A program made the position numbers and the translations under genes. The notes below the pieces were generated by a model. The model was not told the origin of the DNA. It worked only from the letters and a program-made list of their open reading frames with translations, and did no database searches. From Bacteroidaceae bacterium (GTDB lineage: Bacteria > Bacteroidota > Bacteroidia > Bacteroidales > Bacteroidaceae): a stretch of DNA of 40,883 nt. Positions 1,684 through 33,902 of this stretch are shown piece after piece. Position 1 is the stretch's first letter. Each line of letters opens with the position of its first letter. Location of the stretch: assembly GCA_017455585.1 (NCBI GenBank), contig JAFSZU010000012.1, positions 1 to 40,883 on the forward strand, written 5' to 3'.

Positions 1684-4600
1684 ATGAGACCTAGCCTATT
1701 CATTCTTATTTCTTATTTCTTATTTCTTATTTCACCCGCCGTGGCCCAGAACACCTTCACCGCTCGCATCGTGGATGCCGAGAGCGGCGACCCGCTGCCG
1801 CTGGTGAGTATCTATATCTCCGAGGAGAAAGGCACGCTGACCAACTTCGACGGCGAGTTCAGCATCATGGCAGACTCCACCGACCTGCTGCGCATCACGT
1901 GTGTGGGGCGGCAGAGCATCGCCCTGTATGCCAGCCAACTACCCCAGGTGCTGCGTATGAAGATGCTGTCTGCCACGCTGTCCGAGGTCACCGTGAGTGC
2001 CGTGGAGGGCAAGCTCCTGGAGGTGGCACGACGCATGGAGAAGGCCTACGGGCGGCGCAAGTACAAGGAGGCGCAGTACTTCTACCGTCAGACCTCCGTG
2101 CTGGCGCAGAAGCAAGATATCGTGGAGGCATTCATCGGTGCCAAGGCTGCCGTGAACCTGCGGGGTCTGGAGTTCCTGACGGGCCGCCACGGGCGACTCA
2201 GCGAGGCGGCGTGGGCCCAGTCTGCCATCAACGAGATGAACCTGCACCACGTCCTGGAGCTGGGTCCCATGACCAAAGACGCGGCCTTCTGGCACAGCCT
2301 CGTCACGCCGCTGCCCGCCAGAGAACCCTCCACCAGCTGGGGAGGATTCGTCGGGAAGGAGCTTGGACGTGCCATCGAGTACCTGCAGAAGCACTACATC
2401 ATCACCATCGACGAGATGGACGGCGAGGACCAGCAGCTCTACCGCATCCAGCTGCGCCGCCGCGAGGACGAAACCATGAAGGCACCCATCATGACCGGCA
2501 CGCTCTACGTGGATCGCCCCACGCTCTCTGTGCTGGCCTTCGACGGGCAGGTGGAGAACATGATAATCCGCTTCAGCAAGGGAGAGCTGCGCAGTGCCAC
2601 CACCATTCCCGTCAATCTGGAGTTCCACATCGACTACCGCTATGACCGCAAGTTCCCCGAGGTGGCAGACCTGTCCATGCAGGCCCGCTGGGGTGACTTC
2701 CAGACGCGCACCCTGCTCTTCAACGTGGAGGGGCAGAAGCACCTAAAGAAGAAAAAAGGTACGCACGCGCGAGAGAACATGCTCACCAGCATCGCAACCG
2801 TGGGCTATGACAGCACTTTCTGGGCCAACAACGAGGTGGTGAAGCGCACGGCAGAGGAAGCCGCCATCGCCGCCGGAACGGTGGATCGCCAACAGGCACG
2901 CCTCGACAGCGTGGCCACCGCGCAAGCGGCCATGCCCCCATTAGAGCGGCTGGCAGACCGCCTCACCCGCTTCGGACAGGCCATCCCGCAGGAGAAGGTC
3001 TATGTCCACATGGACAACACCTGCTACTTCCTGGGCGACACCATCTGGTTTGCCGCCTACACACGCCGCACCAACGAGGACAAGCCCAGCCGCATCAGCC
3101 GCGTGCTCTATGCCGAGCTGTGGAACCACGATGGCTACCTGGTGGAGCGCAAGCTGGTGGAGATGAAGGAAGGGCGGGGTCGCGGCTTCTTCGCCCTGCC
3201 AGACACCCTCTACAGCGGCTACTTCGAGCTGCGAGCCTATACCCGCTGGCAGCTCAACTGGGGGCAGACAGAGCACTACCACACATGGCCCACCGAGTAC
3301 TGGTTCTACAACAAGGCGATGGCCAAGGACTTCTTCCGCGACTACGAGAAACTCTATTCCCGTGTCTTCCCCGTCTATGACAAGCCCAAACAGAAGGGTG
3401 AGTTCTACCGTGACATGACCCTGCGCCCCCTGCGACGCTACTTCAAGTCGGCTCCCAAGCCCGCCGAGCTGCGCCTCTCGCTCTTCCCCGAGGGCGGCAA
3501 CCTGGTGGCCGGCGTGCCATGCCGCGTGGCCTTCGAGGCCGCGACCAGCGAGGGGGAAGTGGTCGAAGGCTCGGTGAGTCTTCAAATGAAAAAGGGAAAA
3601 ATAAAAATGAAGAATGAACGGGGCGAAGAGGTGGAGAGCGTGGAAACGGAGAACCGCGGGCGCGGCACCTTCATCTTCACACCCGAGGAAGGAGAGAAAT
3701 ACGAGGTCGTGTTCACGGCTCATGACCCCGGAACGAATGGAAAAAGGGAGACCGTCTCGCAGACCATCAAGGATGTGAAGGCCGAGGGTGTCGCACTGCA
3801 AGCGAATCTCGACAGCCTCACCGGCCAGTGGAACGTCACCCTCTACGCCGCCGGACAAGCGGCCCGGCAGCCCCTGGGTCTCACCGTGATGCACGAGGGA
3901 CAGGTGAAGTTCTTTGAGTGCATAGTGCATAGTGCAGAAGTGCATAGTGCAGAAGTGCATAGTGATACCTTTGCAGATGGAAATTTAGAGTCACAGCAAT
4001 CACTATGCACTATGCACTCCAGCACTATGCACTCCAGCACTATGCACTCAACATCCCTTTCCCCTGGCATCCACCAAGTTACCGTCTTCGACTCCATCGG
4101 TCACATCTATGCCGACCGCCTCTTCTTCGTCACCGCCCCCGACCTGGCACAACCCACATTGATGCTCTCTGGCCTGAAAGACCAGTACCAGCCCTACGAA
4201 CAGGTGAACCTTGACATCACCTCATCACACCTCATGCCCGGACAAACCGTGTCGCTGGCCGTGCGCGACGCCGCCCTGCAGGACTACACCTTCGACAGCG
4301 GCAATATCATGACAGAGATGCTGCTGGCCTCAGAGATCAAGGGCTTTGTGCCACAACCGGATTATTTCTTCGAAGCCGACGATGCGGAGCACCGCCGCGC
4401 CCTGGATCTGCTCATGCTGACCCAGGGCTGGCGGCGCTTCAACTGGCAGGACATGGCCGTCAAGGGCGCATGGGACATCACACATCCCGCCGAACACACG
4501 CAGATGGTCACCGGCACCGTCAACCGCTACTACGCAGACACCAGCGGCTTTGACCCCAACTACGATGCAGTCCAGGCAGAGCACGCTGCTTTCCAGATGT

Positions 4601-6054
4601 CCATGGCCACCAACCTCTTCGGCGAGACCGTGCAGATGGGCGACGGCAGTGCCATCGTCTATGGCAATGACGGCTACCAGCCCTACAACCATTTCGCCAA
4701 CAACCGCTCCTACGGCAACCGCAACTTCGGGTGGAACCTGAATACTTTTGAGGAGAACAAGATGCAGAACGGATACTTTGGTTCTTCCAGCTCCTTCTCC
4801 TCCTTCCAGCTGCAACGCCCCGAATGGCGTAACACCGACTACAACGTCCTCAACTTCAAGACCGCAGACTCCTACCGCCAACGGCGCAAGGACAAGATGA
4901 ACGAGGCCGCCCGCCGCTACGTGGAGGAAGGAACGGTCAAGAAGGACGTGACGGTGCACGCCGAATTCGTGGATGCCGAAGACCCCAAAGACTACCTCAT
5001 CGGCGAGACGCAGACCCAGAACGGTCGCTTCCAGATCGACCTGCCCCGCTTCGAGGGACAGTGCATCTTCTTCCTCGCGGCCAGCGACACCACCAAATGG
5101 AAGAAGAAGGAACGCCACAACTGGGTGAAGGTGGACCCCACCGACGAGTACTCCTCCTCGCCCGCCTACCCCGAATACTATGTCCGCCTGAACTTCCCCT
5201 ATCCCCGCTGGGTGAAACCCTACACCTTCTATCAGGTACACAACGCCCTCATAGAACCGCTACCCTCGCGCTCAGACAGCAACCTCTCCTTCGGCAGTAC
5301 CTCTTTCCCCTCACCGCGCTCTGTTCGCGGCGGTACGTCCGCCGCGTCACCCGCCGCCTCCAAGCGCCGCCTACTCACCGACGGCACCAACCTCCTCAGC
5401 GAAGTCACCATCCGCGCCCGCCACGGAGGCCTCCGCCGCATCGACTACAGCAAGCCCGCTTACGTCATCGATGCCTACAATGCCCTCAACCTGGGCATGG
5501 ACGCCGGCCTCATCGACTACACCTTCAGCGCACATGAAGTGGGGCAGAAAGCCGCCGCCGCCCTCATCGGAGATATGGGCATGGAGCGCCACTACGACAT
5601 CAGCACCAGCGGAGACAGCCGCCCAGGCCTGAACCGAGGCCCACTGGAAGAGCGACGCTACAACCTGCTGCCCTATATCGACAAGATGTATATCTACACC
5701 GACTACTCGCCGCGCCGCGAAGGAGATGAACGCTACGAACAGGACAACCAGCCCAGCGTGAGAATTGACTTGCGCCGTTACCCCGACCAGAGCCAGCGCG
5801 TCACCTACATCGACCGCCGGTATATCCTGCCCGGCTTCGCCTACCAAGAGGACTTCTACCACCCCGACTACCAGCGCACACCACCCACAGAGGCCACGAA
5901 GGACTACCGCCGCACTCTCTACTGGAACCCCGACCTGCAGCTGGATGCCAACGGTCGCGCACACATCCACTTCTTCACCGGCACCCGCGCCGCCACACTC
6001 CACGTGGATGCCGCAGGGCAGACTGCCGCAGGAGATCTTCTCTTCTGCCAGTAG
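1684..6054 (+). CDS. Large secreted MG2 / carboxypeptidase-regulatory-like protein
   Basis: 1456 residues. The signal peptide (residues 1-21) has a hydrophobic core written by four perfect copies of a 7-base repeat. Residues about 22-100 are a carboxypeptidase-regulatory-like beta-sandwich (FTARIVDAESGDPLPLVSI, then GTLTNFDGEFSI). Around residues 430-540 lies a macroglobulin-type MG2 stretch (EKVYVHMDNTCYFLGDTIWF). The C-terminal part ends with a RTLYWNPDLQLDANGRA motif and another beta-sandwich. Bacteroidota proteins of this layout sit at the cell envelope and are often described as TonB-receptor-associated or alpha-2-macroglobulin-like; their substrate is generally unknown. Oddities are in-frame low-complexity inserts: residues about 634-645 (7-base tract), about 745-789 (paired inverted tracts) and a GC-rich hairpin at 5326-5346. 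I see no obvious TonB plug or 22-strand barrel, so a receptor role is doubtful. Confidence 0.8.
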   Translation: MRPSLFILISYFLFLISPAVAQNTFTARIVDAESGDPLPLVSIYISEEKGTLTNFDGEFSIMADSTDLLRITCVGRQSIALYASQLPQVLRMKMLSATLSEVTVSAVEGKLLEVARRMEKAYGRRKYKEAQYFYRQTSVLAQKQDIVEAFIGAKAAVNLRGLEFLTGRHGRLSEAAWAQSAINEMNLHHVLELGPMTKDAAFWHSLVTPLPAREPSTSWGGFVGKELGRAIEYLQKHYIITIDEMDGEDQQLYRIQLRRREDETMKAPIMTGTLYVDRPTLSVLAFDGQVENMIIRFSKGELRSATTIPVNLEFHIDYRYDRKFPEVADLSMQARWGDFQTRTLLFNVEGQKHLKKKKGTHARENMLTSIATVGYDSTFWANNEVVKRTAEEAAIAAGTVDRQQARLDSVATAQAAMPPLERLADRLTRFGQAIPQEKVYVHMDNTCYFLGDTIWFAAYTRRTNEDKPSRISRVLYAELWNHDGYLVERKLVEMKEGRGRGFFALPDTLYSGYFELRAYTRWQLNWGQTEHYHTWPTEYWFYNKAMAKDFFRDYEKLYSRVFPVYDKPKQKGEFYRDMTLRPLRRYFKSAPKPAELRLSLFPEGGNLVAGVPCRVAFEAATSEGEVVEGSVSLQMKKGKIKMKNERGEEVESVETENRGRGTFIFTPEEGEKYEVVFTAHDPGTNGKRETVSQTIKDVKAEGVALQANLDSLTGQWNVTLYAAGQAARQPLGLTVMHEGQVKFFECIVHSAEVHSAEVHSDTFADGNLESQQSLCTMHSSTMHSSTMHSTSLSPGIHQVTVFDSIGHIYADRLFFVTAPDLAQPTLMLSGLKDQYQPYEQVNLDITSSHLMPGQTVSLAVRDAALQDYTFDSGNIMTEMLLASEIKGFVPQPDYFFEADDAEHRRALDLLMLTQGWRRFNWQDMAVKGAWDITHPAEHTQMVTGTVNRYYADTSGFDPNYDAVQAEHAAFQMSMATNLFGETVQMGDGSAIVYGNDGYQPYNHFANNRSYGNRNFGWNLNTFEENKMQNGYFGSSSSFSSFQLQRPEWRNTDYNVLNFKTADSYRQRRKDKMNEAARRYVEEGTVKKDVTVHAEFVDAEDPKDYLIGETQTQNGRFQIDLPRFEGQCIFFLAASDTTKWKKKERHNWVKVDPTDEYSSSPAYPEYYVRLNFPYPRWVKPYTFYQVHNALIEPLPSRSDSNLSFGSTSFPSPRSVRGGTSAASPAASKRRLLTDGTNLLSEVTIRARHGGLRRIDYSKPAYVIDAYNALNLGMDAGLIDYTFSAHEVGQKAAAALIGDMGMERHYDISTSGDSRPGLNRGPLEERRYNLLPYIDKMYIYTDYSPRREGDERYEQDNQPSVRIDLRRYPDQSQRVTYIDRRYILPGFAYQEDFYHPDYQRTPPTEATKDYRRTLYWNPDLQLDANGRAHIHFFTGTRAATLHVDAAGQTAAGDLLFCQ
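1703..1730 (+). repeat. Four perfect 7-base repeats encoding a signal-peptide core
   Basis: Four identical TTCTTAT units plus a partial fifth, read as ILISYFLFLIS in the signal peptide of the MG2-type protein. Because 7 is not a multiple of 3, gain or loss of one unit would shift the frame 20-40 bases after the start codon. Confidence 0.85.
3584..3618 (+). repeat. Purine-rich 7-base tract in frame within the MG2-type gene
   Basis: Five units in register: AAATGAA, AAAGGGA, AAAATAA, AAATGAA, GAATGAA. Translated as a Lys-rich run (QMKKGKIKMKNE). It is AT-rich within GC-rich coding sequence. Confidence 0.7.
3916..4049 (+). repeat. In-frame inverted pair of 7/8-base tandem tracts
   Basis: Left arm 3916-3964 is built from GTGCATA and GTGCAGAA units. 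Right arm 4001-4049 is built from the complementary CACTATG and CACTCCAG units. Both arms are 49 bases and share the inverted core AGTGCATAGTG; 36 bases separate them. The whole element is open in the host frame and inserts a Ser/His-rich stretch containing AEVHSAEVHS and TMHSSTMHSS just before a conserved-looking beta-strand (GIHQVTVFDSIG). Confidence 0.85.
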
Positions 6055-8530: not shown

Positions 8531-9826
8531 TTATCTCACCCTGATTTTCTGTCCGGCCTTGATATTGTTGCCTCTGATGCCGTTGAGACTTCGCAACTTG
8601 GCCACGGTGGTGCCGTTTCTCTTTGCGATGGCTCCGAGACTGTCGCCGCGCCGGACGGTAACCGTCGTGCCGCCGCGTGCCGCTGCCCGTCCGCGCCGTC
8701 CTCTGCCGCTGGCATACTGACCCTGTGCCACCTCCACCTCACTGCGGCTGGTCAACAGTTCCGTGGCGTGGTAGGTGTAGATGCTGTCACCCGCAGCCAC
8801 GAAGGCAGCCATGGCCGGTGTGGGCAGGCGCAGTGTGCACTCGTGGCTGTCGCCGGGGATGAGGCTGGTGCGGTACTGCGGATTCAGTGCTCTCAACTCC
8901 TCGGCTTTGACATTGCAGAGTGCCACCACCTGGTCCATGTGCAGGTTGCGTGTCACCGTGACGGTGTCCGTCGAGGCAGGCAGCTGTGCGGCTGCCGGGC
9001 AGATATTGTGGTCGCAGTAGTGGTTCATGATGTAGTTGGCGGCGATGAAGGCCGGCACATAGCCGCGTGTCTCGGCGGGTAAGTAAGGGTAGATACGCCA
9101 GTAGTCCTTCTCGCCGCCAGCCCGGGCAATGGCTTTGCGCACATTGGCCGGTCCGCAGTTGTAGGAGGCAATGACGAGTGTCCAGTCCCCGAAGATGTCA
9201 TAGAGGTCGTGCAGGTAGTGGGCGGCGGCGTAGCTGGCCTTGATGGGGTCTCGCCGCTCATCGATGAGGCTTGTGACTTCAAGCCCGTACTGCTTGCCCG
9301 TGGTGATCATGAACTGCCACAGCCCCACGGCTCCGGCACGGCTGACAGCGGTTGGGTTCAGCGCCGATTCTATGACGGGCAGGTATTTCAGTTCCAGCGG
9401 CATCTGGTAGGCTTCCAGTGCCTCCTCAAAGATGGGCGTGTAGAAATTGCTGGCTCCCAGGATGATGCTCACACTGCGCCGCAGCCGACCGGCATACTGG
9501 TCGATGAACTTGCGCACCACCTCATTGTAGGGCATCTCTATCACGTTGGGCAGACGTCCCAGGCGGCGGATGTATGTCTCACGGTCGAATTCGGGGTTCG
9601 TGCCTTCTGTGCAATCACCCTCGGCAGAGAGGTAGTTCTTGTTGTTCCACTCCAGCAAGAGACTGTCCAGCTCGGCTTCCATGCCGTCGGGCAGACTGAT
9701 GTCGTCGGGCGAGAGGGCCGGCTGTTCATCGTCATCTTCCACCTCTTGCGCGCAGAGGGTGGCAGGCAGGAGGCATGGAGTAAGAAATAAGAAATAGGAA
9801 ATAAGAAATAAGAATATATGTCTCAT
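8531..9826 (-). CDS. mltD: Lytic transglycosylase (MltD-like) with LysM
   Basis: 431 residues from the ATG at 9826; a longer frame upstream lacks a signal sequence and overlaps the preceding gene, so it was rejected. The signal peptide (MRHIFLFLISYFLFLTPCLL) is written partly by a 7-base repeat. The SLT domain spans about 125-285: ELKYLPVIESALNPTAVS with probable catalytic Glu153, GAVGLWQFM, then SYAAAHYLHDLYDIFGDW and IASYNCGPANVRKAI. A LysM peptidoglycan-binding repeat closes the protein (VTVRRGDSLGAIAKRNGTT to the end), and a weaker LysM-like stretch precedes it. The enzyme class cleaves the MurNAc-GlcNAc bond in periplasmic peptidoglycan. Its place between DUF5683 and rsh next to parAB is a familiar Bacteroidota arrangement. 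The symbol reflects domain similarity, not proven orthology. Confidence 0.88.
   Translation of the reverse strand: MRHIFLFLISYFLFLTPCLLPATLCAQEVEDDDEQPALSPDDISLPDGMEAELDSLLLEWNNKNYLSAEGDCTEGTNPEFDRETYIRRLGRLPNVIEMPYNEVVRKFIDQYAGRLRRSVSIILGASNFYTPIFEEALEAYQMPLELKYLPVIESALNPTAVSRAGAVGLWQFMITTGKQYGLEVTSLIDERRDPIKASYAAAHYLHDLYDIFGDWTLVIASYNCGPANVRKAIARAGGEKDYWRIYPYLPAETRGYVPAFIAANYIMNHYCDHNICPAAAQLPASTDTVTVTRNLHMDQVVALCNVKAEELRALNPQYRTSLIPGDSHECTLRLPTPAMAAFVAAGDSIYTYHATELLTSRSEVEVAQGQYASGRGRRGRAAARGGTTVTVRRGDSLGAIAKRNGTTVAKLRSLNGIRGNNIKAGQKIRVR
9782..9816 (-). repeat. 7-base tandem tract encoding the mltD-like signal-peptide core
   Basis: Five units on the + strand: AAGAAAT, AAGAAAT, AGGAAAT, AAGAAAT, AAGAATA. 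The complement is the same unit, by rotation, as TTCTTAT at 1703-1730, and both encode LISYFLFL in a signal peptide. Confidence 0.85.
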
Positions 9827-10662: not shown

Positions 10663-10709
10663 TTGTTAACCTGTAACGTGTTAACGTGTTAACGTGTTAA
10701 CGTGTCACG
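10663..10709. repeat. 8-base tandem array at the parB stop codon
   Basis: Three perfect GTGTTAAC units (10678-10701), flanked by diverged copies TTGTTAAC (overlapping by one base the next), CCTGTAAC and GTGTCACG. The last copy contains the parB stop codon. Each perfect unit includes the palindrome GTTAAC. It occupies part of the parB to DUF5683 gap. Confidence 0.8.
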
Positions 10710-11621: not shown

Positions 11622-11739
11622 AATGAAGAAATAAGAATGAAGAAATAAGAATTCTCATGATCAAATCCATCTCTCTCTATTACTCATTCTCCATTTTTCA
11701 TTCTTATTTATTCATTCCTCATTCTTCATTCTTATTTAT
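11622..11739. repeat. Paired, inverted 7-base tandem tracts between parA and parB
   Basis: Left arm 11622-11649: AATGAAG, AAATAAG, AATGAAG, AAATAAG. Right arm 11684-11739: eight units of TCATTCT, TATTTAT and close variants, in perfect 7-base register. The arms are complementary in composition (for example AATGAAGAAATAAGAA against TTCTTATTTATTCATT). The right arm runs into parA and supplies its last residues (NKNEE and stop). Confidence 0.85.
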
Positions 11740-12486
11740 TATCTCCTGCGCCAGCGCCAGATGGTTGCGTGCTCCCGCACTGTCGGCATCATAGAGGATG
11801 GCGGGGATTCCGTGGCTGGGTGCCTCGGAGAGTTTCACGTTGCGGGTGATGACCGTCTTGAAGACCAGTTCCTGGAAGTGACGCTGCACCTCGTCCTTGA
11901 TCTGGTTGGCCAGACGCAGACGCGAGTCATACATCGTCAGCAGGAAGCCTTCGATTTCCAGTGCAGGATTCAGTTTCTGCTTGATGATCTTGATGGTATT
12001 CAGCAGCTTGGAGATGCCTTCCAGTGCAAAGTACTCACACTGCACGGGGATGATGACCGAGTCGGCAGCCGTCAGCGCGTTGACCGTGATCAGTCCCAGC
12101 GATGGCGAGCAGTCGATGAGGATGTAGTCATAGTCCGAGAGCAGTGGCCGCAGCACGCGGCGCATCACCTGTTCGCGGCCGTCCAGGTTCAGCATCTCTA
12201 TCTCTGCGCCCACGAGGTCGATGTGGCTGGGGATGATGTCCAGACCCGGGACGTCGGTCTCGTAGATGGCCTCGCGGGCGTCTTTCTGTCCGATGAGGCA
12301 GTCATAGATGCTGGTCTCTACCTCCTGTATGTTCACCCCGAGGCCGCTGGAGGCGTTGGCCTGCGGGTCGGCATCGATGAGCAGCACGCGCTGTTCCAGG
12401 GTTGCCAGGGATGCAGCCAGGTTCATGCTCGTGGTGGTCTTGCCCACGCCACCTTTCTGATTGGCTAATGCAATTATCTTTCCCAT
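11719..12486 (-). CDS. parA: Chromosome partitioning ATPase ParA (Soj)
   Basis: 255 residues. ParA is a deviant-Walker ATPase that binds the nucleoid and, with ParB, moves replicated origins apart. The start MGKIIALANQKGGVGKTTTS carries the deviant Walker A (KGGVGKTT, residues 11-18). LLIDADPQANAS is the Walker A' region and YDYILIDCSPSLGLIT the Walker B region. The length is normal for chromosomal ParA without an N-terminal HTH. The last codons (NKNEE, stop) fall inside a 7-base repeat tract. It is the first gene of the parA-parB-DUF5683-mltD-rsh run. A -7 box at 12557-12564 and an AT-rich near-palindrome at 12526-12545 lie in its leader. Confidence 0.95.
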   Translation of the reverse strand: MGKIIALANQKGGVGKTTTSMNLAASLATLEQRVLLIDADPQANASSGLGVNIQEVETSIYDCLIGQKDAREAIYETDVPGLDIIPSHIDLVGAEIEMLNLDGREQVMRRVLRPLLSDYDYILIDCSPSLGLITVNALTAADSVIIPVQCEYFALEGISKLLNTIKIIKQKLNPALEIEGFLLTMYDSRLRLANQIKDEVQRHFQELVFKTVITRNVKLSEAPSHGIPAILYDADSAGARNHLALAQEIINKNEE

Positions 12487-14436: not shown

Positions 14437-14516
14437 GTGTTGATTATTCGGTCATGATGGAATGATTATTCCATCATGACCGAATAATCATTCCATCATC
14501 ATGGAATAATCAACAC
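14437..14516. repeat. Palindromic 22-base-family repeat upstream of nhaA
   Basis: A near-perfect stem of 23 base pairs (14441-14463 with 14468-14490, loop GATT) has the core ATTCGGTCATGATGGAAT and its complement. A third, diverged copy follows (14491-14510). The ends GTGTTGATTATT and AATAATCAACAC form a 12-base outer inverted repeat. The same core recurs as three direct copies at 31629-31694. No run of T follows, so it is not a typical terminator. The rest of the 320-base gap 14387-14707 holds the nhaA promoter and nothing else I recognise. Confidence 0.85.
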
Positions 14517-16241: not shown

Positions 16242-16322
16242 GCGCCTGTGGTGGAATGGTAGACACGCCAGACTTAGGATCTGGTGCCGCGAGGCGTGAA
16301 AGTTCGAGTCTTTTCAGGCGTA
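16242..16322 (+). tRNA. tRNA-Leu (anticodon TAG)
   Basis: Cloverleaf: acceptor GCGCCTG pairs with CAGGCGT (one G-T pair), anticodon stem CCAGA/TCTGG with loop CTTAGGA, a long variable arm typical of class II tRNA (GCCGCGAGGC), and T loop TTCGAGT. The 3' CCA is not encoded. It reads CUN leucine codons, mainly CUA. Confidence 0.95.
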
Positions 16323-16359: not shown

Positions 16360-16433
16360 GTCGGCATAGCTCAGCTGGTTAGAGTATCACCTTGACATGG
16401 TGGGGGTCCTTGGTTCGAGTCCAAGTGTCGACA
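16360..16433 (+). tRNA. tRNA-Val (anticodon GAC)
   Basis: Acceptor GTCGGCA pairs with TGTCGAC, anticodon stem TCACC/GGTGG with loop TTGACAT, T stem CTTGG/CCAAG with loop TTCGAGT. CCA is not encoded. It lies 37 bases after tRNA-Leu and is probably co-transcribed with it. Confidence 0.95.
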
Positions 16434-16495: not shown

Positions 16496-19132
16496 CTACT
16501 CCAGTGTCACCTCAAGGCGTTTCAGATCCTCGGGACGCGAACTGGTGCCATAGAGCAGCTCGTAGCGTCCGGCATGGGTGTGGACAGTATTTGTCTGCGG
16601 GTCAAAGAGTTCGAAGGTCTTGGCAGTGAGCGGGATCTGGACACTGGCAGTCTGTCCGGCCTTCACAGCCACGCGCTGGAAGGCACGCAGCGATTTCAGC
16701 GGACCCTCTGCATCGGTCAGGTCGCGGACATAGAGCTGCACAACCTCCGTGCCGTCGCGCTTGCCCGTGTTGGTTACAGGCACCGTCAGCGTGCCCTTTA
16801 AACTTTCAACTTTAAATTTTAAACTTTCAACTTGTGCCTCGCCTACGGCGAAGGTGGTGTAGCTGAGGCCGTAGCCGAAGGCAAAGAGCGGGTCGGAGAA
16901 GTAGCGATAGGTACGCCCCTTCATGGAATAATCCTCATAGTCGGGCAGTTGCTCGGTGTTGCGATAGAAGGTCACAGGCAGTTTGCCGCTGGGATTGACC
17001 TGTCCGAAGAGCACATCGGCCACTGCCGTGCCGCCTTCCTGTCCGGCATACCACGCCTGGACGATGGCATCGCACGTCGCCGTCTCAGGTGTCAGCGCGA
17101 TGGCAGAGCCCGAGCAGTTGACGAAGATGACGGTCTTGCCGGCGGCTTTCAGTGCCTTCAGGAAGTCACGCTGCACACGCGGCAGCTCGATGCTCGTGCG
17201 GTCGCCACCCTTGAAGCCTTCGATGCTCACAGGCATCTCCTCGCCTTCGAGAGCGGGCGAGATGCCTCCCACGAAGATGACTTTCTGGATGCCTTTGAGC
17301 TGGGCAATGAGTGCATCGTAGTCGATGAGCTGCTCCTGCGCCACGTCAATCTTCATGTTGGCACCCCATGTCTTGACAAACTCGTAGCGTATCTCGATGT
17401 CGTAGCTCTTGCCGGCTTCTGTCTGGAGGGACGTGCGGGTGGGGGTGGTGCGCCAGGAATGCACGCGCTGCTTGCGCTCGCCATTGACATAGACCTCATA
17501 GTGTCCGCAGCCCTCCACGTTGATGACATATTCGCCACCCGTCTTCGGGGTGAAGGTGGTCTCGTACTTGGCCGAGAAATCCTCGATGGCCACGCCGGGC
17601 GCAAAGTTGTGCATACCCGCTGTGGTCACGGCCACGGGTATGGTATATTGCTGTGTGGTCACGGCCGGACCTTCCATCTTGGTGTTGTTCCAGAAGGTGC
17701 CGCGCAGTCCCTTCTTGCCTCCAGAAGCGCACTCCGTGGCCAGTCGGCTGTCCATCACCAATGTGTTGGTCAGGTCGCAACCCGGGAAATACACTAATTT
17801 ACCATTTGACCATTTACCATTTACCATTTTATCTCTTTTCACCTTCAACTTCCCACAGATGCCGTCGAGGATGGTCACGGTGTGGTTGGGCGTGCCGTTG
17901 TAGTTGCCCCACATCATGGGGGCATTGTCGGCGTTGGGGCCGATGACGGCGATGCGCTCCTTGCCGGCTTTCAGCGGCAGCACATCACCTTTGTTCTGCA
18001 GCAGCACAATCGTCTGGCGCGCCATATCAAGTGCCTTCTGGGCACTCTCCTTGGTGGACATGGCGGAATAGGGAATCTTGGACCACTCCACGAGCGACGG
18101 GTCATCCATCTCTCCCAGGTCAAAGCGACCCTCCAAGAGGCGCACCACATGCTTATCAACTTCTTTCTCAGTGATGAAGCCGCGGTGAACGGCCTCGGGA
18201 ATGGAGCGGTAGGGGTAGTCAAAGCCACACTCCACATCGGTGCCAGCCAGGACGGCCTTGGCAGAAGCGTGTGTGGAATCGGACGAACTCTTGTGCGAGG
18301 TGTAGAAGTCGCTGACGGCACCGCAGTCGCTGACTACCAAGTACTTGAATCCCCACTCGTCGCGCAGGATTTGCTGGAGCAGACGCGCGTTGCCGCAGCA
18401 CGGCTCATCGTCCAAGCGCTGATAGGCACACATCACCTCGCGCACCTTGGCATCCTCCACCAGCGTCTTGAACGCGGGCAGATAGGTTTCCCACATATCG
18501 CGCACGCTCACATCCGTCAGGTTGGCCGTGTGGCGCGTGTATTCCGGGCCGCTGTGCACGGCATAGTGCTTGGCGCAGGCCCATAGTTTGCGGTACTTCG
18601 CGTCCTCGGGGCCTTGCAGACCGCGCACCACCTGCGTGCCCATCACGCTGGTCAGGTAGGGGTCTTCGCCGTAGGTCTCCTGTCCGCGTCCCCACCGAGG
18701 GTCACGGAAGATATTGACGTTGGGTGTCCACACGCTCAGTCTGTGTAACTTCTCGTCCTCGCCGCCGTCCTCGTGCATACGCTTGTTGTACTGCGCACGG
18801 AACTCGGTGCTGGCCACGTCGAACACCTTATATAAAAGGTCGGGGTTGAAGGAGGCGGCCATGGCCACGGGTTCGGGAAATACGGTCACGTTGCCCATAT
18901 TGGCAGCACCGTGCAGGGCCTCGCTCCACCAGAAGAACTTCTTGATGCCGAGGCGAGGGATGGCCGGGCTCTCGTCGAGCATCAACTGCGCCTTCTCTTC
19001 CAGAGTCAGGCGGCCACAAAGGTCTTTGGCGCGCTCCTTGGCACTCAACGCCGGGTTCTGATACGGTAATTGCTGTGCGCTCATGCACAAGCTGATGGCC
19101 ACTGCCATCGCCGAAAAAAGGATTCTCTTCAT
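16496..19132 (-). CDS. Glycoside hydrolase family 3 with PA14 insert
   Basis: 878 residues from the ATG at 19132, which gives a signal peptide (MKRILFSAMAVAISLCMSA); seven extra upstream codons were rejected. Retaining exo-glycosidase acting in periplasm or outside. The GH3 N-terminal barrel has RDPRWGRGQETYGEDP (143-158), KHYAVHSG (188-195) and YLVVSDCGAVSD with nucleophile Asp269. The second domain is split by a PA14-like insert (about residues 475-590, with GGEYVINVEGCGHYEVYVNG), and a fibronectin III-like end follows. SDC in place of SDW and the PA14 insert resemble Prevotella xylan-type beta-xylosidases, but beta-glucosidase is possible. No polysaccharide-utilisation susC/susD pair is near. 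Two 7-base tracts are translated in frame at about residues 434-446 and 766-777. Confidence 0.9.
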   Translation of the reverse strand: MKRILFSAMAVAISLCMSAQQLPYQNPALSAKERAKDLCGRLTLEEKAQLMLDESPAIPRLGIKKFFWWSEALHGAANMGNVTVFPEPVAMAASFNPDLLYKVFDVASTEFRAQYNKRMHEDGGEDEKLHRLSVWTPNVNIFRDPRWGRGQETYGEDPYLTSVMGTQVVRGLQGPEDAKYRKLWACAKHYAVHSGPEYTRHTANLTDVSVRDMWETYLPAFKTLVEDAKVREVMCAYQRLDDEPCCGNARLLQQILRDEWGFKYLVVSDCGAVSDFYTSHKSSSDSTHASAKAVLAGTDVECGFDYPYRSIPEAVHRGFITEKEVDKHVVRLLEGRFDLGEMDDPSLVEWSKIPYSAMSTKESAQKALDMARQTIVLLQNKGDVLPLKAGKERIAVIGPNADNAPMMWGNYNGTPNHTVTILDGICGKLKVKRDKMVNGKWSNGKLVYFPGCDLTNTLVMDSRLATECASGGKKGLRGTFWNNTKMEGPAVTTQQYTIPVAVTTAGMHNFAPGVAIEDFSAKYETTFTPKTGGEYVINVEGCGHYEVYVNGERKQRVHSWRTTPTRTSLQTEAGKSYDIEIRYEFVKTWGANMKIDVAQEQLIDYDALIAQLKGIQKVIFVGGISPALEGEEMPVSIEGFKGGDRTSIELPRVQRDFLKALKAAGKTVIFVNCSGSAIALTPETATCDAIVQAWYAGQEGGTAVADVLFGQVNPSGKLPVTFYRNTEQLPDYEDYSMKGRTYRYFSDPLFAFGYGLSYTTFAVGEAQVESLKFKVESLKGTLTVPVTNTGKRDGTEVVQLYVRDLTDAEGPLKSLRAFQRVAVKAGQTASVQIPLTAKTFELFDPQTNTVHTHAGRYELLYGTSSRPEDLKRLEVTLE
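16801..16835 (-). repeat. 7-base tandem tract inside the GH3 gene (C-terminal)
   Basis: Units AACTTTC, AACTTTA, AATTTTA, AACTTTC, AACTTGT in register. On the coding strand they give a peptide with period seven (VESLKFKVESLK) in a linker before the fibronectin-like domain. Confidence 0.8.
17794..17830 (-). repeat. 7-base tandem tract inside the GH3 gene (middle)
   Basis: Units of ACCATTT (17801, 17816, 17823) with one 8-base unit GACCATTT at 17808, keeping the gene in frame. The translation is MVNGKWSNGKL, at the junction before the PA14 insert. Confidence 0.75.
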
Positions 19133-21279: not shown

Positions 21280-21286
21280 AGTGTTT

Positions 21287-21340
21287 TATAGGTCTTATAA
21301 GTCTTATAGGTCCTATAGGTCTTATGAGTCATATAGGTTT
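21287..21340. repeat. Six-copy 9-base tandem array between pssA and pyrH
   Basis: Units TATAGGTCT, TATAAGTCT, TATAGGTCC, TATAGGTCT, TATGAGTCA, TATAGGTTT, in perfect 9-base register. It fills the whole gap upstream of the pyrH start and touches the pssA stop. Confidence 0.85.
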
Positions 21341-22037
21341 ATAATGAGAATTGCCAGCTGATGAGGGAGAGGGTGATATACCACAAGATGATGCAGGGGA
21401 TGGCCGTGAGACCCAGCGGAGAGAGGCAAAGACACCCGATGAGGAAGATGTATTTCACGCGGTTGTCCCGCCAGCTGAGATTCTTGAACTTCAATGCAAA
21501 GAGAGGCACTTCAGCGATGAGGAAGAAGCATGCCGCCAGCATAAAGAGGAGGAGGAACACAGCATTGAAGCGGGGTGAGCACAGGAATGACCGTTCTGCC
21601 ACGATGAGCGAGGCCCAGAACAGGGCGTTGGCCGGGGTAGGCAAACCGATGAAGCTGGTCAACTGCCGGTCGTCCAGGTTGAATTTGGCCAGTCGCAGAG
21701 CCGAGAAGGCGGCCAACAGGAAAGCTGTATAGGGCAGATAGCCCGACAGCGGTTGCAGCCAAGCGGGATACAGGACCATCCCGAACAGCTGGAAGAGCAT
21801 GGCCGAGGGAGCCACGCCGAAGGTGACAACATCGGCCAGCGAGTCCAGTTCCTTACCAATGGGGGAACTGATGTGCAAGGCACGTGCAGCCATCCCGTCG
21901 AAGAAGTCAAAGACGGCACCCGCCACAATCATCAACAAAGCCCACTCAAATCGGGCATGAAAAGCAGCGCCCGTGGCCATGCAACCGCAGATGAGGTTGC
22001 AACATGTCAGGGCGTTAGGGAAGTTCAGTAATTTCAC
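21339..22037 (-). CDS. pssA: CDP-diacylglycerol-serine O-phosphatidyltransferase
   Basis: Phosphatidylserine synthase, an inner-membrane enzyme that joins CDP-diacylglycerol and serine; the next enzyme, Psd, is encoded just upstream. The CDP-alcohol phosphatidyltransferase motif is present as DGMAARALHISSPIGKELDSLADVVTFG, that is D-G-x2-A-R-x8-G-x3-D-x3-D with the usual aspartates. Several membrane helices follow. I chose the GTG at 22037, giving MKLLNFPNALTCCNLICG, the normal beginning for this family (232 residues). The frame is open upstream to a TTG at 22085, which would add 16 residues (containing RIVKLSNRQIVK) encoded by an 8-base repeat; that start cannot be excluded. Confidence 0.88.
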   Translation of the reverse strand: MKLLNFPNALTCCNLICGCMATGAAFHARFEWALLMIVAGAVFDFFDGMAARALHISSPIGKELDSLADVVTFGVAPSAMLFQLFGMVLYPAWLQPLSGYLPYTAFLLAAFSALRLAKFNLDDRQLTSFIGLPTPANALFWASLIVAERSFLCSPRFNAVFLLLFMLAACFFLIAEVPLFALKFKNLSWRDNRVKYIFLIGCLCLSPLGLTAIPCIILWYITLSLISWQFSL

Positions 22038-22069
22038 GATTTGACGATTTGACAATTTGACAATTCGCA
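22038..22069. repeat. 8-base tandem tract at the pssA start
   Basis: Units GATTTGAC, GATTTGAC, AATTTGAC, AATTCGCA, immediately next to the proposed GTG start codon of pssA and filling the gap after psd. Confidence 0.75.
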
Positions 22070-25900: not shown

Positions 25901-26677
25901 CTGGACGCCTATGTCCGCTACGGCACCCTCTACCAAGAGAGCAAGGCATCGGCCGAAGCATCGCTCTTCGGAGACTTCGATGCCGTGGAAGTGGCAACAC
26001 CGCCTATTCCGCAAGAGTTCATGGAATGGAGCGCGCTGGAGCGTCTGAACAAGGAACGCGATCTTGTGGGTATCTATCTCTCGGCTCATCCGCTCGACGA
26101 GTTCTCCATCATCCTCAATGATGTGTGCACAACACGTGTTGTTGAACTCAACGACCGCCAAAAGTTGGTGGGACAGGACATCACTTTCGGAGGCATCGTC
26201 ACCGCCGTCAAGACTGGAGTGGGGAAGAGCGGACAACCCTACGGCATCCCGACCATCGAAGACTATTCGGGCACATACGAGCTACCACTGTGGGGGCAGG
26301 ACTGGGCCACCTGGGGCATGTATATGACGGTGGGCGCATCGCTCTTCATCACTGCACGCATCCAACCTGGCCGCTACAATGCCAACCGCATAGAGACAAG
26401 TATCGGTAAGATAGACTTCTTGTCTGATATCAAGGACCAATTGATAGAAAGTATCACTATTACCGCATCGCTGGCCAACTTGAACGATGACATTGTGCTC
26501 TCTCTCTCCGAACTCATTGACAACAGTCCTGGCAACGCCGCGCTGTATTTCCATATTATTGACCCGGAAGGCCACATGAACCTGACCCTGCGCAGCCGCA
26601 GCAAGCAAGTGTCCGTGCGGCGTGAACTCATCGAATATATCCAAGGCCAAACCGCGCTGGCATATAGGATCAATTGA
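22958..26677 (+). CDS. dnaE: DNA polymerase III alpha subunit DnaE
   Basis: 1239 residues from the ATG at 22958 (MHDFVHLHVHTQYSLLDG); an in-frame codon 60 bases upstream overlaps the promoter. It is the replicative polymerase catalytic subunit. The N-terminal PHP domain begins with HLHVHTQ and contains VTDHGNMMGM. The catalytic palm has GPGRGSAAGSVVAYCLGI and PDIDVDFDDDGRG with the metal-binding aspartates. NALYRPGPMDYIPDFIDRK, TVYQEQVMLLSRQLA and the helix-hairpin-helix region follow. A C-terminal OB-fold begins near VGQDITFGGIVTAVKTG. No proofreading exonuclease insert of the PolC type is seen. The stop codon lies at the beginning of the 98-base 7-mer tract that leads into trxA. Confidence 0.97.
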   Translation: MHDFVHLHVHTQYSLLDGQASIPRLVDKAIKDGMRGMAVTDHGNMMGMKEFFNYVKKKNSARKEEGLEPFKPIFGCEMYVAERTLYDRDKDLDRNRYHLIVLAKNEVGYHNLVKLVSKSWTDGFYNRPRTDHDELKSHAEGLIVCSACLAGEVPRLILKGDIKGAEERILWYKSIFGEDYYLELQRHEVTNPTQRANRETYPLQQQANAVIIELAHKHGIKLVCTNDVHFVDEDNAEAHDRLICLGTSKDLDDPNRMLYSKQEWFKTREEMNNIFGDVPEALTNTLEILDKVETYSIDHAPIMPNFAIPKSFGTEESYHQRFTDEQLFEEFTRDENGREVCSREEAEKKVKRLGGVQKLYRLKLEADYLGHLAYAGAKKIYGEPLSEEVVERIKFELHVMKTMGFPGYFLIVQDYINAARYELGVSVGPGRGSAAGSVVAYCLGITKVDPIKYDLLFERFLNPDRISLPDIDVDFDDDGRGKVLSWVTQKYGEDNVAHIITYGTMATKSSIRDVARVQKVPLDVSNALLKAIPDRLPDAPDGKPRKMNLTNAIACVPELQQAAASPNPMMRDTIRYAQMLEGNVRNTGVHACGVIICRDAISDWVPVSTAEDKETGEKLICTQYEGSVIEDTGLIKMDFLGLKTLSIINEALQNIHDSLGIDIDIDRIDIEDPATYQLYCDGRTIGTFQFESTGMQKYLRELQPSTFEDLIAMNALYRPGPMDYIPDFIDRKQGRKPVEYDIPCMEKYLKDTYGITVYQEQVMLLSRQLANFTRGESDTLRKAMGKKLKDKLDHMKPQFIEQGQANGHDPKILEKIWADWEKFASYAFNKSHATCYSWVAYQTAYLKANYPAEYMAAVMSRSLDDINEITKLMAECKSLGIKTLGPDVNKSRQKFSVDDEGNIRFGLGAIKGLGDSAVDAIISERERGGDFQNLFDFIQRVSIPAVKRNGVESLVLSGAMDALTDIRREQFFTHTAKGELFLDAYVRYGTLYQESKASAEASLFGDFDAVEVATPPIPQEFMEWSALERLNKERDLVGIYLSAHPLDEFSIILNDVCTTRVVELNDRQKLVGQDITFGGIVTAVKTGVGKSGQPYGIPTIEDYSGTYELPLWGQDWATWGMYMTVGASLFITARIQPGRYNANRIETSIGKIDFLSDIKDQLIESITITASLANLNDDIVLSLSELIDNSPGNAALYFHIIDPEGHMNLTLRSRSKQVSVRRELIEYIQGQTALAYRIN

Positions 26678-26770
26678 AAATTGAAAATTAAAAATTGATA
26701 ATTGAAAGGTTCCCCTAAACACTAAACACTAAACTTTAAACTTTAAACTTTAAACTCTAAACTTTATAAC
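26673..26770. repeat. 98-base tract of fourteen 7-base units between dnaE and trxA
   Basis: Fourteen 7-base units in unbroken register: ATTGAAA-type units (26673-26707), one unrelated unit GGTTCCC, then CTAAACA, CTAAACA, CTAAACT, three TTAAACT, CTAAACT and TTATAAC. It starts in the last codons of dnaE and ends three bases before the trxA ATG. No other signal was recognised in the gap. Confidence 0.9.
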
Positions 26771-27117: not shown

Positions 27118-27148
27118 AATGGTAAATTGTAAATCGTAAATCGTAAAT
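27118..27148. repeat. 7-base tandem tract ending at a start codon
   Basis: Units AATGGTA, AATTGTA, AATCGTA, AATCGTA, then AATATGG, whose ATG is the start codon of the following gene. Confidence 0.8.
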
Positions 27149-31628: not shown

Positions 31629-31700
31629 ATTATTCGGTCATGATGGAATAATTATTCGGTCATGATGGAATAATCATTCGGTCATGATGGAATAATCAAC
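31629..31700. repeat. Three tandem copies of the 22-base palindromic repeat upstream of dgt
   Basis: Units begin at 31629, 31651 and 31673; each contains ATTCGGTCATGATGGAATA and is separated by TAAT or ATC. A terminal ATCAAC matches the end of the copy near nhaA. The remainder of the 539-base gap 31384-31922 contains the response-regulator promoter and sites, the dgt promoter, and about 100 bases (31700-31790) in which I see nothing. Confidence 0.88.
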
Positions 31701-33867: not shown

Positions 33868-33902
33868 AGAAAGTTGAAAGTTGAAAGTTGAAAATTAAAT
33901 AT
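33868..33902. repeat. 7-base tandem tract at the wbqC-like start
   Basis: Units AGAAAGT, TGAAAGT, TGAAAGT, TGAAAAT, TAAATAT in register, between the methyltransferase stop and the proposed TTG start. The unit TTGAAAG is also used in the GH3 tract at 16801-16835. Confidence 0.8.

Follow-up and report, generated by a model that had tools for sequence, protein, structure and literature searches.

The gap between dnaE and trxA in this stretch of DNA carries tandem units of seven bases, and the same period recurs at other sites with different units. The question is what process keeps the period while the units change. The window (the whole stretch that was analysed, 40,883 nucleotides) is contig C33 of a genome of 2.82 Mb in 201 contigs, about 80% complete. 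Since the closest named relatives of its TrxA are Bacteroidaceae/Prevotellaceae bins, many of them rumen-derived and the nearest (90%) from water-buffalo rumen, the host is probably an uncultured rumen Bacteroidales species.

Tandem tracts of the window and the spectrum of periods

Tracts were searched for with Tandem Repeats Finder and a separate lag scan, both in the window and in a larger set of 60 stretches of the same genome within 849 kb. Twenty of these stretches (L009–L028) were selected by match to a dnaE-trxA query, so the counts for 849 kb are enriched in tracts; the main counts were repeated on the 40 stretches (L029–L068, 467,373 bases) chosen by contig number alone, referred to below as the unbiased set. 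A codon-based gene model gave 31 genes in the window and 630 in 849 kb and left 13% of the DNA intergenic. The model trims some N-termini, so a few intergenic tracts are probably coding, among them those at 1703 and 9781; it was trained on this genome, so its intergenic calls are poor in other families. The tracts of the window were as follows.

984–1020: degenerate tract with 80% matches, inside ORF 808–1647
1703–1733: TTCTTAT array, 4.4 copies, encoding the hydrophobic N-terminus of ORF 1684–6054, signal-peptide-like by appearance
3917–4049: dispersed ACTATGC element, a conserved core flanked by (AGTGCAT)n on the left and (ATGCACT)n on the right, lying in frame in ORF 1741–6054
9781–9814: TAAGAAA array, 4.9 copies; read on the minus strand, it gives the signal-peptide-like MRHIFLFLISYFLFL in a transglycosylase/LysM protein
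10674–10705: 8-base array TAACGTGT, 4 copies
11622–11740: inverted pair, seen by eye, in the parB-parA gap: two copies of AATGAAGAAATAAG, then TCATTCT arrays reaching the parA stop
16796–16833: CTTTAAA/CTTTCAA array in a variable-length stretch between two domains of a GH3 gene
17797–17829: ATTTACC array within the GH3 gene, belonging to an insertion of 14 residues (42 bp)
21286–21343: 9-base array TTATAGGTC, 6.6 copies
22031–22065: 8-base array ATTTGACR, 4.4 copies
26672–26707, plus strand: 5' array of the dnaE-trxA gap, AATTGAA-type, 5.1 copies, overlapping the dnaE stop codon
26715–26763, plus strand: 3' array of the same gap, CTAAACA/CTAAACT/TTAAACT, 7.0 copies (Tandem Repeats Finder)
27118–27148, plus strand: AAATCGT-type array, 4 copies, immediately upstream of the start of the gene that follows trxA
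33869–33893: AAAGTTG array, 3.6 copies, near the start of a WbqC-like gene (minus strand)

The two methods agreed on the tracts of the window. At a score of at least 14, the scan found eight tracts at lag 7, two at lag 8, one at lag 9, two at lag 15, none at lags 3–6 and 10–13, and four at lag 14, which overlaps lag 7 as lags were taken singly; the null means were 0.00–0.01 per lag (100 local first-order Markov resamples). The 8-base and 9-base sites of the initial annotation (10674, 22031 and 21286) were all recovered. Its site at 985 exists only in degenerate form and lies inside a gene, and its site at 3584, an A-rich stretch with AATGAA copies, was reported by neither method. The annotation had also placed the family at gene borders. 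The dnaE-trxA tracts and that at 27118 do lie in gaps, whereas those at 984, 1703, 9781, 16796 and 17797 are in reading frames, and the array at 33869 may be as well, as an N-terminal extension of the WbqC-like gene. The tracts at 1703 and 9781 both encode signal-peptide-like N-termini built of TTCTTAT arrays; at the former, five aligned homologs of ORF 1684–6054 carry other sequence.

The tracts are genuine and exceed chance expectation by far. For the unbiased set, at a score of at least 16 and with one period assigned per tract, there were 45 tracts of period 7 against none of periods 2–6. Periods 8, 9, 10 and 11 gave 9, 4, 1 and 2 tracts, periods 14, 15 and 22 gave 9, 6 and 24, and counts at other periods above 15 were smaller. 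Three third-order Markov resamples of the intergenic part yielded zero tracts at this score; with the threshold lowered to 14, two period-3 tracts appeared in the set. The comparison of period 7 with periods 5–10 that the initial annotation had proposed thus came out in its favor (45 vs. 0, 0, 9, 4 and 1), and its observation that the period is kept while the units differ is borne out. The spectrum has a sharp lower edge at seven. A process working in steps of about seven, as had been suggested, is thus supported; the templating machine suggested with it was not found.

Density varied strongly within the genus. This genome had 55 period-7 tracts in 467 kb. G015 had 13 (99 kb) and G016 three (100 kb), G018 and G010 together had two (99 kb), and G011 and G004 had none (100 kb each); the trxA loci of 80 named records held five in 481 kb. 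This spread among congeners, with none in 100 kb at one end and over 100 per megabase at the other, offers a handle for studying the process.

Probable duplication in place with a minimum step near seven

We consider it likely, with some reservation, that the tracts are heptanucleotide simple sequence repeats that arose by slippage, sequence being duplicated in place in steps of no fewer than about seven bases. The initial annotation knew of no named class with these properties; such a class exists in the heptanucleotide long simple sequence repeats (PMC4679880, PMC4692102). In most genomes they are described as more abundant than any other category of long simple sequence repeat (PMC4679880, citing Mrazek 2007). 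Slippage with a minimum step near seven is a general proposal of Mrazek and co-workers, cited through PMC4679880. The tracts share two features with this class: they are tandem units of seven, longer and commoner than chance, and seven dominates the other short units, though short lag-9 duplications rival those of lag 7. The annotation had held that slippage would not produce a constant period with differing units. This does not follow: each local seed yields its own unit, so one step acting on different seeds gives varied units with a single period.

The step can be seen in the shortest duplications. With long tracts masked, exact two-copy duplications in intergenic DNA of this genome were counted against a Markov expectation (observed/null): 1523/1432 at lag 3, 396/317 at lag 4, 91/81 at lag 5, 30/20.8 at lag 6, 47/5.6 at lag 7, 8/2.2 at lag 8 and 6/0.2 at lag 9. 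The ratios for lags 3–6 were 1.06, 1.25, 1.12 and 1.44, against 8.4 for lag 7. Lag-7 duplications stood at 15/2.2 in five congeners and at 14/9.1 in three other families with poor gene calls. This measure demands longer matches as the lag grows. Under an equal criterion of 8–13 matched bases, lag 9 (28/1.0) was on a par with lag 7 (25/1.8) and lags 10–12 were also in excess; with 7–13 matched bases in the unbiased set, lag 9 (51/3.3) exceeded lag 7 (25/3.8). At least 11 of 21 short lag-9 cases were variants of one unit, ACACAGATT, which is part of a dispersed element. Because lag 9 rivals lag 7 at equal match length, the firm statement is limited to the lower edge at seven and to the fact that long arrays have period 7 far more often than any other. 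The edge of the duplication spectrum is in itself a measurable quantity.

Neighboring units were more alike than expected. Across 45 period-7 arrays, adjacent units differed at 178 positions against 202.1 ± 8.1 after shuffling of units (1 of 1000 shuffles as low). Units two apart showed no extra likeness (172 mismatches vs. 164.7 shuffled). Arrays of period 14 alternate two units.

The dnaE-trxA gap was compared among relatives. The initial annotation had read it as fourteen units in unbroken register; it holds instead the two arrays listed above, of 5.1 and 7.0 copies, the second ending 10 bp upstream of the trxA start. The short stretch between them matches neither unit, so register cannot be traced across the gap; the scanned starts lie 43 bases apart (6 × 7 + 1), a phase that is not strictly defined between unlike units. 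A hairpin was considered for this gap and rejected, the folding z-scores being −0.58 as DNA and +0.46 as RNA. dnaE precedes trxA in 79 of 80 loci, and arrays of 7 or 8 bases were marked in three. Units were read by eye in the 25 nearest loci (L151–L175). A single TAAAC-type unit precedes trxA in L152, L159 and L166, and two in L169. The closest locus, L151, has a degenerate 7-base run under the threshold and L153 has four 7-base units, while L167 repeats the two-array layout of the window, with ATTGAAC-type units at the stop codon and TTTAAAC-type units before the start. The more distant L188 carries an 8-base array followed by 7-base units. Three other species thus carry arrays at this place. 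Several of the nearest relatives, L154, L157 and L160 among them, showed no TAAAC-type motif by eye. The gap after trxA, also read by eye, holds an 8-base array in G010, a 9-base array in G019 and a short 7-base array in G005. We read both gaps as places of repeated local growth from seeds, although with one genome per species loss is possible as well.

On this reading, an array would grow from a local seed by slippage during replication, at different sites with different units. According to an old proposal, seven is favored as the length of DNA held by the polymerase. The edge at seven could arise where the slipped primer end moves far enough for the loop to escape polymerase contact, proofreading or repair, and the direction of change would be growth rather than loss. 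Arrays would survive where sequence is free, that is, in gaps upstream of genes, N-terminal leader stretches and variable loops, and some may have spread from place to place in the lineage, as the ACTATGC element with its inverted array ends and fixed core appears to have done. Loss of mismatch repair was ruled out as the cause of the abundance since mutS and mutL are both present in the genome.

Slippage is favored by the period spectrum, the excess of lag-7 duplications, the likeness of adjacent units, the uneven density among congeners and the one or two TAAAC-type units that stand at dnaE-trxA in some relatives; these units and the similarity of neighbors fit slippage as the cause of changes in unit number, each species being represented by a single genome. 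Several observations speak against it. The absence of the TAAAC-type motif from several of the nearest relatives, the lack of extra likeness between units two apart and the short lag-9 duplications, as common as those of lag 7 or commoner, have been given above. Further, inverted pairing of arrays is not predicted by slippage, over-representation of AAAGTTG shows that the units were not drawn at random from local seeds, and variation at one unit position is common to many loci.

Inverted pairs and dispersed elements

Tracts were often mirrored within a gap. Where 20 bp or more of the gap remained, 24 of 68 intergenic period-7 tracts had an inverted mate in the same gap at a score of at least 16 against 3.1 expected; both arms count, so the 24 correspond to about 15 gaps. 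Direct mates were found for 6 of 68 (2.6 expected). The unbiased stretches gave 11 of 27 for inverted mates (7 gaps; 1.45 expected) and 2 for direct ones (0.95 expected). In total, 39 inverted pairs, a few of them overlapping, were listed in 101 sources, 36 in this genome; the unit length was 7 in 26 pairs, 8 in five and 9 in eight, and the cores measured 12–115 bp. The parB-parA pair of the window lies outside this list. Six hand-picked pairs fold, with z from −4.0 to −11.9 against mononucleotide shuffles.

Such pairs suggest that the arrays could be the ends of small foldback-like mobile elements, in which array, short core and inverted array would form a hairpin moved by an enzyme acting in trans, the solitary arrays being their remains. 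The clearest case is the ACTATGC element, which has inverted ends, is short and occurs in many dispersed copies, as expected of a MITE. It was found at 14 or more near full-length places in this genome, a lower bound because 14 of 23 candidates were scored, and its core is common to the 13 copies that were fetched. In 60 other congeneric genomes, eight matched in the array part only and the core was not found (for G074, where 14 of 23 candidates were likewise scored, this absence is incomplete). In ORF 1741–6054, a conserved gene, the element sits in frame at a loop; seven aligned homologs lack it, and three of these seven carry other sequence there. A paralog of this ORF on C170 carries the element at the identical place, so one of the two copies probably came by inheritance and not by a fresh insertion. 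At the one insertion site examined by eye, no target-site duplication was seen. Cores were also alike in two 8-base pairs on L035 and in L011/L016/L123.

Taken as an account of the arrays in general, mobile elements are nevertheless an unlikely explanation. From locus to locus, the cores of AATTATG and AAAGTTG pairs are mostly unlike (by eye), the dnaE-trxA gap does not fold, and the pairs of L045 and L046 lie partly within probable N-terminal coding sequence (by eye). The two arms of a pair resemble each other no more than arms taken from different pairs (0.45 of swaps beaten, n = 23), which likewise leaves arm-to-arm copying without support. A search for Y1_Tnp gave zero matches in this genome at its completeness of about 80%, and a match in 16 of 47 genomes; mobilization of the RAYT/IS200 type was rejected on this ground. 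REPINs, which are moved by RAYTs (PMC3116915), are also dispersed and consist of short inverted repeats around a spacer, as part of the tracts do; they are single palindromes, whereas the repeats described here are tandem arrays in a genome without a Y1 transposase match. The BrickBuilt MITE of Porphyromonas gingivalis resembles the arrays in that it belongs to Bacteroidales, is intergenic and has tandem units within an element with inverted ends (PMC4596501).

An all-vs-all comparison of masked gaps found no core common to the tract-bearing gaps and gave, among the clusters listed, other dispersed repeats. One is a CGGAAA-rich, hairpin-like intergenic repeat (L063 2242–2501, L064 8730–8935, L010 13877–14095, L058 688–1103), often beside AGTTGAA arrays and within the largest gap cluster (53 gaps, among the clusters listed). 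Nine-base arrays of ACACAGATT form the inverted ends of other dispersed elements (L011 542–702, 18603–18942; L059 10481–10599; L012 16032–16153; and others), and a related stretch was seen in another family (L092).

Placement, unit vocabulary and the variable position

Period-7 tracts were mainly intergenic in 83 of 121 cases in 849 kb and in 36 of 55 in the unbiased set. Counting the intergenic tracts of period 7 or 14 with both neighbors known (n = 95), 83 lay between co-directional genes, 11 in divergent gaps and 1 in a convergent gap, although convergent gaps make up 10.5% of gap length (P = 0.0003); the unbiased stretches gave 39, 5 and 0 (n = 44, P = 0.0025). Period-22 arrays were unlike them in this respect, with 22 co-directional, 6 divergent and 10 convergent (n = 38). 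Many tracts begin at the upstream stop codon or finish at the downstream start codon (60 of 82 gaps viewed). On the coding strand, 45 tracts were C-richer and 36 G-richer, without an overall preference. Seven not being a multiple of three, provision of stop codons in all frames was considered as a function and rejected upon reading the catalog, where many arrays have no coding-strand stop. Depending on its place, an array changes the gap between two genes, a probable signal peptide or a loop of a protein.

The arrays of period 7 fell in 29 unit classes. AAAGTTG alone accounted for 23 of 55 arrays in the unbiased set and 40 of 121 overall, against only 0.28% of background intergenic heptamers. 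The unit families that we defined cover 121 of 140 arrays of period 7 or 14, and one of the 19 TTTAAAC-type arrays falls in the unbiased set. Deviations, counted against each array's own majority, were concentrated at one unit position. In AGTTGA-R, position 7 held 64 of 123 (37 of 60 arrays), followed by position 5 with 25; the same position held 13 of 24 in AATTCA-Y, 24 of 48 in AATGAA-N and 10 of 19 in AATTGA-R, and position 1 held 28 of 45 in D-GTTTAA. GAAATAA and TAAATCG, with 4 and 2 deviations, are too small to judge. The unbiased set gave, for position 7, 36 of 65, 8 of 15, 15 of 24 and 5 of 10 in AGTTGA-R, AATTCA-Y, AATGAA-N and AATTGA-R, respectively; D-GTTTAA is represented there by one array only.

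A single array can be followed between species inside a coding gene. The insertion of the GH3 gene that contains the ATTTACC array is common to this genome and G015 and absent from five other aligned homologs. Between the two genomes, four within-unit differences fall at one unit position and a fifth at the array edge. Codons changed for the same residue in 1 of 8 cases inside the array and in 328 of 674 over the gene, the former being a small number.

Avoidance of convergent gaps, the concentrated variation and the GH3 array could all be explained if selection kept the arrays as leader or regulatory sites at which the ribosome or a protein recognizes the core every seven bases. We regard this as improbable. 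Close species differ in whether a given gap holds an array, unit families overlap only partly between array-rich congeners, 38 of 121 period-7 tracts are not mainly intergenic, and neither strand is preferred.

The variable position itself has three candidate origins: units may be exchanged between arrays, the core may be constrained, or a template may be read loosely. Templating is retained because slippage alone accounts neither for the recurring vocabulary nor for the single variable position. One such reading would be a sequence-directed process that keeps rewriting arrays with six bases specified and the seventh read loosely, the step of seven being a property of a template, guide or binding protein. 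The same core and free position would then recur at dozens of loci and persist between species even inside a coding gene, and still the chances of such a process seem slim to us. Heptamers could also be written by an enzyme that uses a short repeated template, for instance a reverse transcriptase; if it copied reiteratively and read one base loosely, units with a mostly fixed core and a single free position would result. This genome and the array-rich G015 each carry a reverse-transcriptase-like gene, similar by eye:

L273 1249–2586: reverse-transcriptase-like gene of this genome
L272 1195–2721: reverse-transcriptase-like gene of G015

Neither an array nor a dimer of the seven unit cores tried was found within about 1.5 kb of these two genes, so a template beside them was rejected. 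The array-poor G011 and G004 have a reverse transcriptase match as well, and the many unit families would require many templates; such an enzyme is very improbable. An artefact of metagenome-bin assembly, conceivable for so fragmented and incomplete a genome, can practically be dismissed, as independent assemblies of other species carry arrays in the dnaE-trxA gap and two assemblies agree in the unit layout and core of the GH3 array.

The preferred reading, slippage with a minimum step near seven, thus concerns a repeat class that is already known, here often in mirrored pairs, also inside genes, and varying mainly at one base. Mirrored arrays and one mainly variable position per unit are constraints on any mechanism. 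Published heptanucleotide repeats are likewise often intergenic and uneven between close relatives (PMC4679880, PMC4692102), whereas this genome has several unit families, inverted pairs and period-22 arrays alongside. TAACTGA direct repeats of Beggiatoaceae, Cyanobacteria and a few Bacteroidetes are also intergenic heptamers, mostly near start codons in one genome, and Cyanothece strains differ in them by indels in 7-nt increments (PMC4679880); they form a system of a single motif, which is absent from the 29 classes found here. Heptamers with variable positions have been published as GGGGA(C/T)T in Nostoc and, in Xanthomonas, as GGGAATC or, in the variable form, GGGANTN (PMC4692102). They resemble the present arrays in that most positions are fixed and one or two free and that length and sequence differ between close relatives, but they are G-rich and quadruplex-forming (PMC4692102), whereas the present arrays are A/T-rich. 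A literature search over titles and abstract openings gave no description of mirrored heptamer arrays or of a shared variable position for Bacteroidales.

Some further features were noted in the window. ORF 1741–6054 has a second insertion of ~30 residues relative to seven homologs (window 5254–5365), in which no tandem array was noticed. Two tRNA genes (16242–16322 and 16360–16433) adjoin the GH3 gene. They were the only matches to Rfam covariance models at gathering score in the window, L016, L036 and L123, and a known structured RNA family was accordingly rejected for the tracts. Arrays of period 22 with palindromic cores occur in the window at 14441–14512 and 31629–31698 (TCATGATGGAATAATCATTCC) and at other loci of this genome (CACGTCCGCACGTG). 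They number 44 in 849 kb, all mainly intergenic, and the 23-nt minisatellite unit of BrickBuilt (PMC4596501) is closer to them than to the heptamers.
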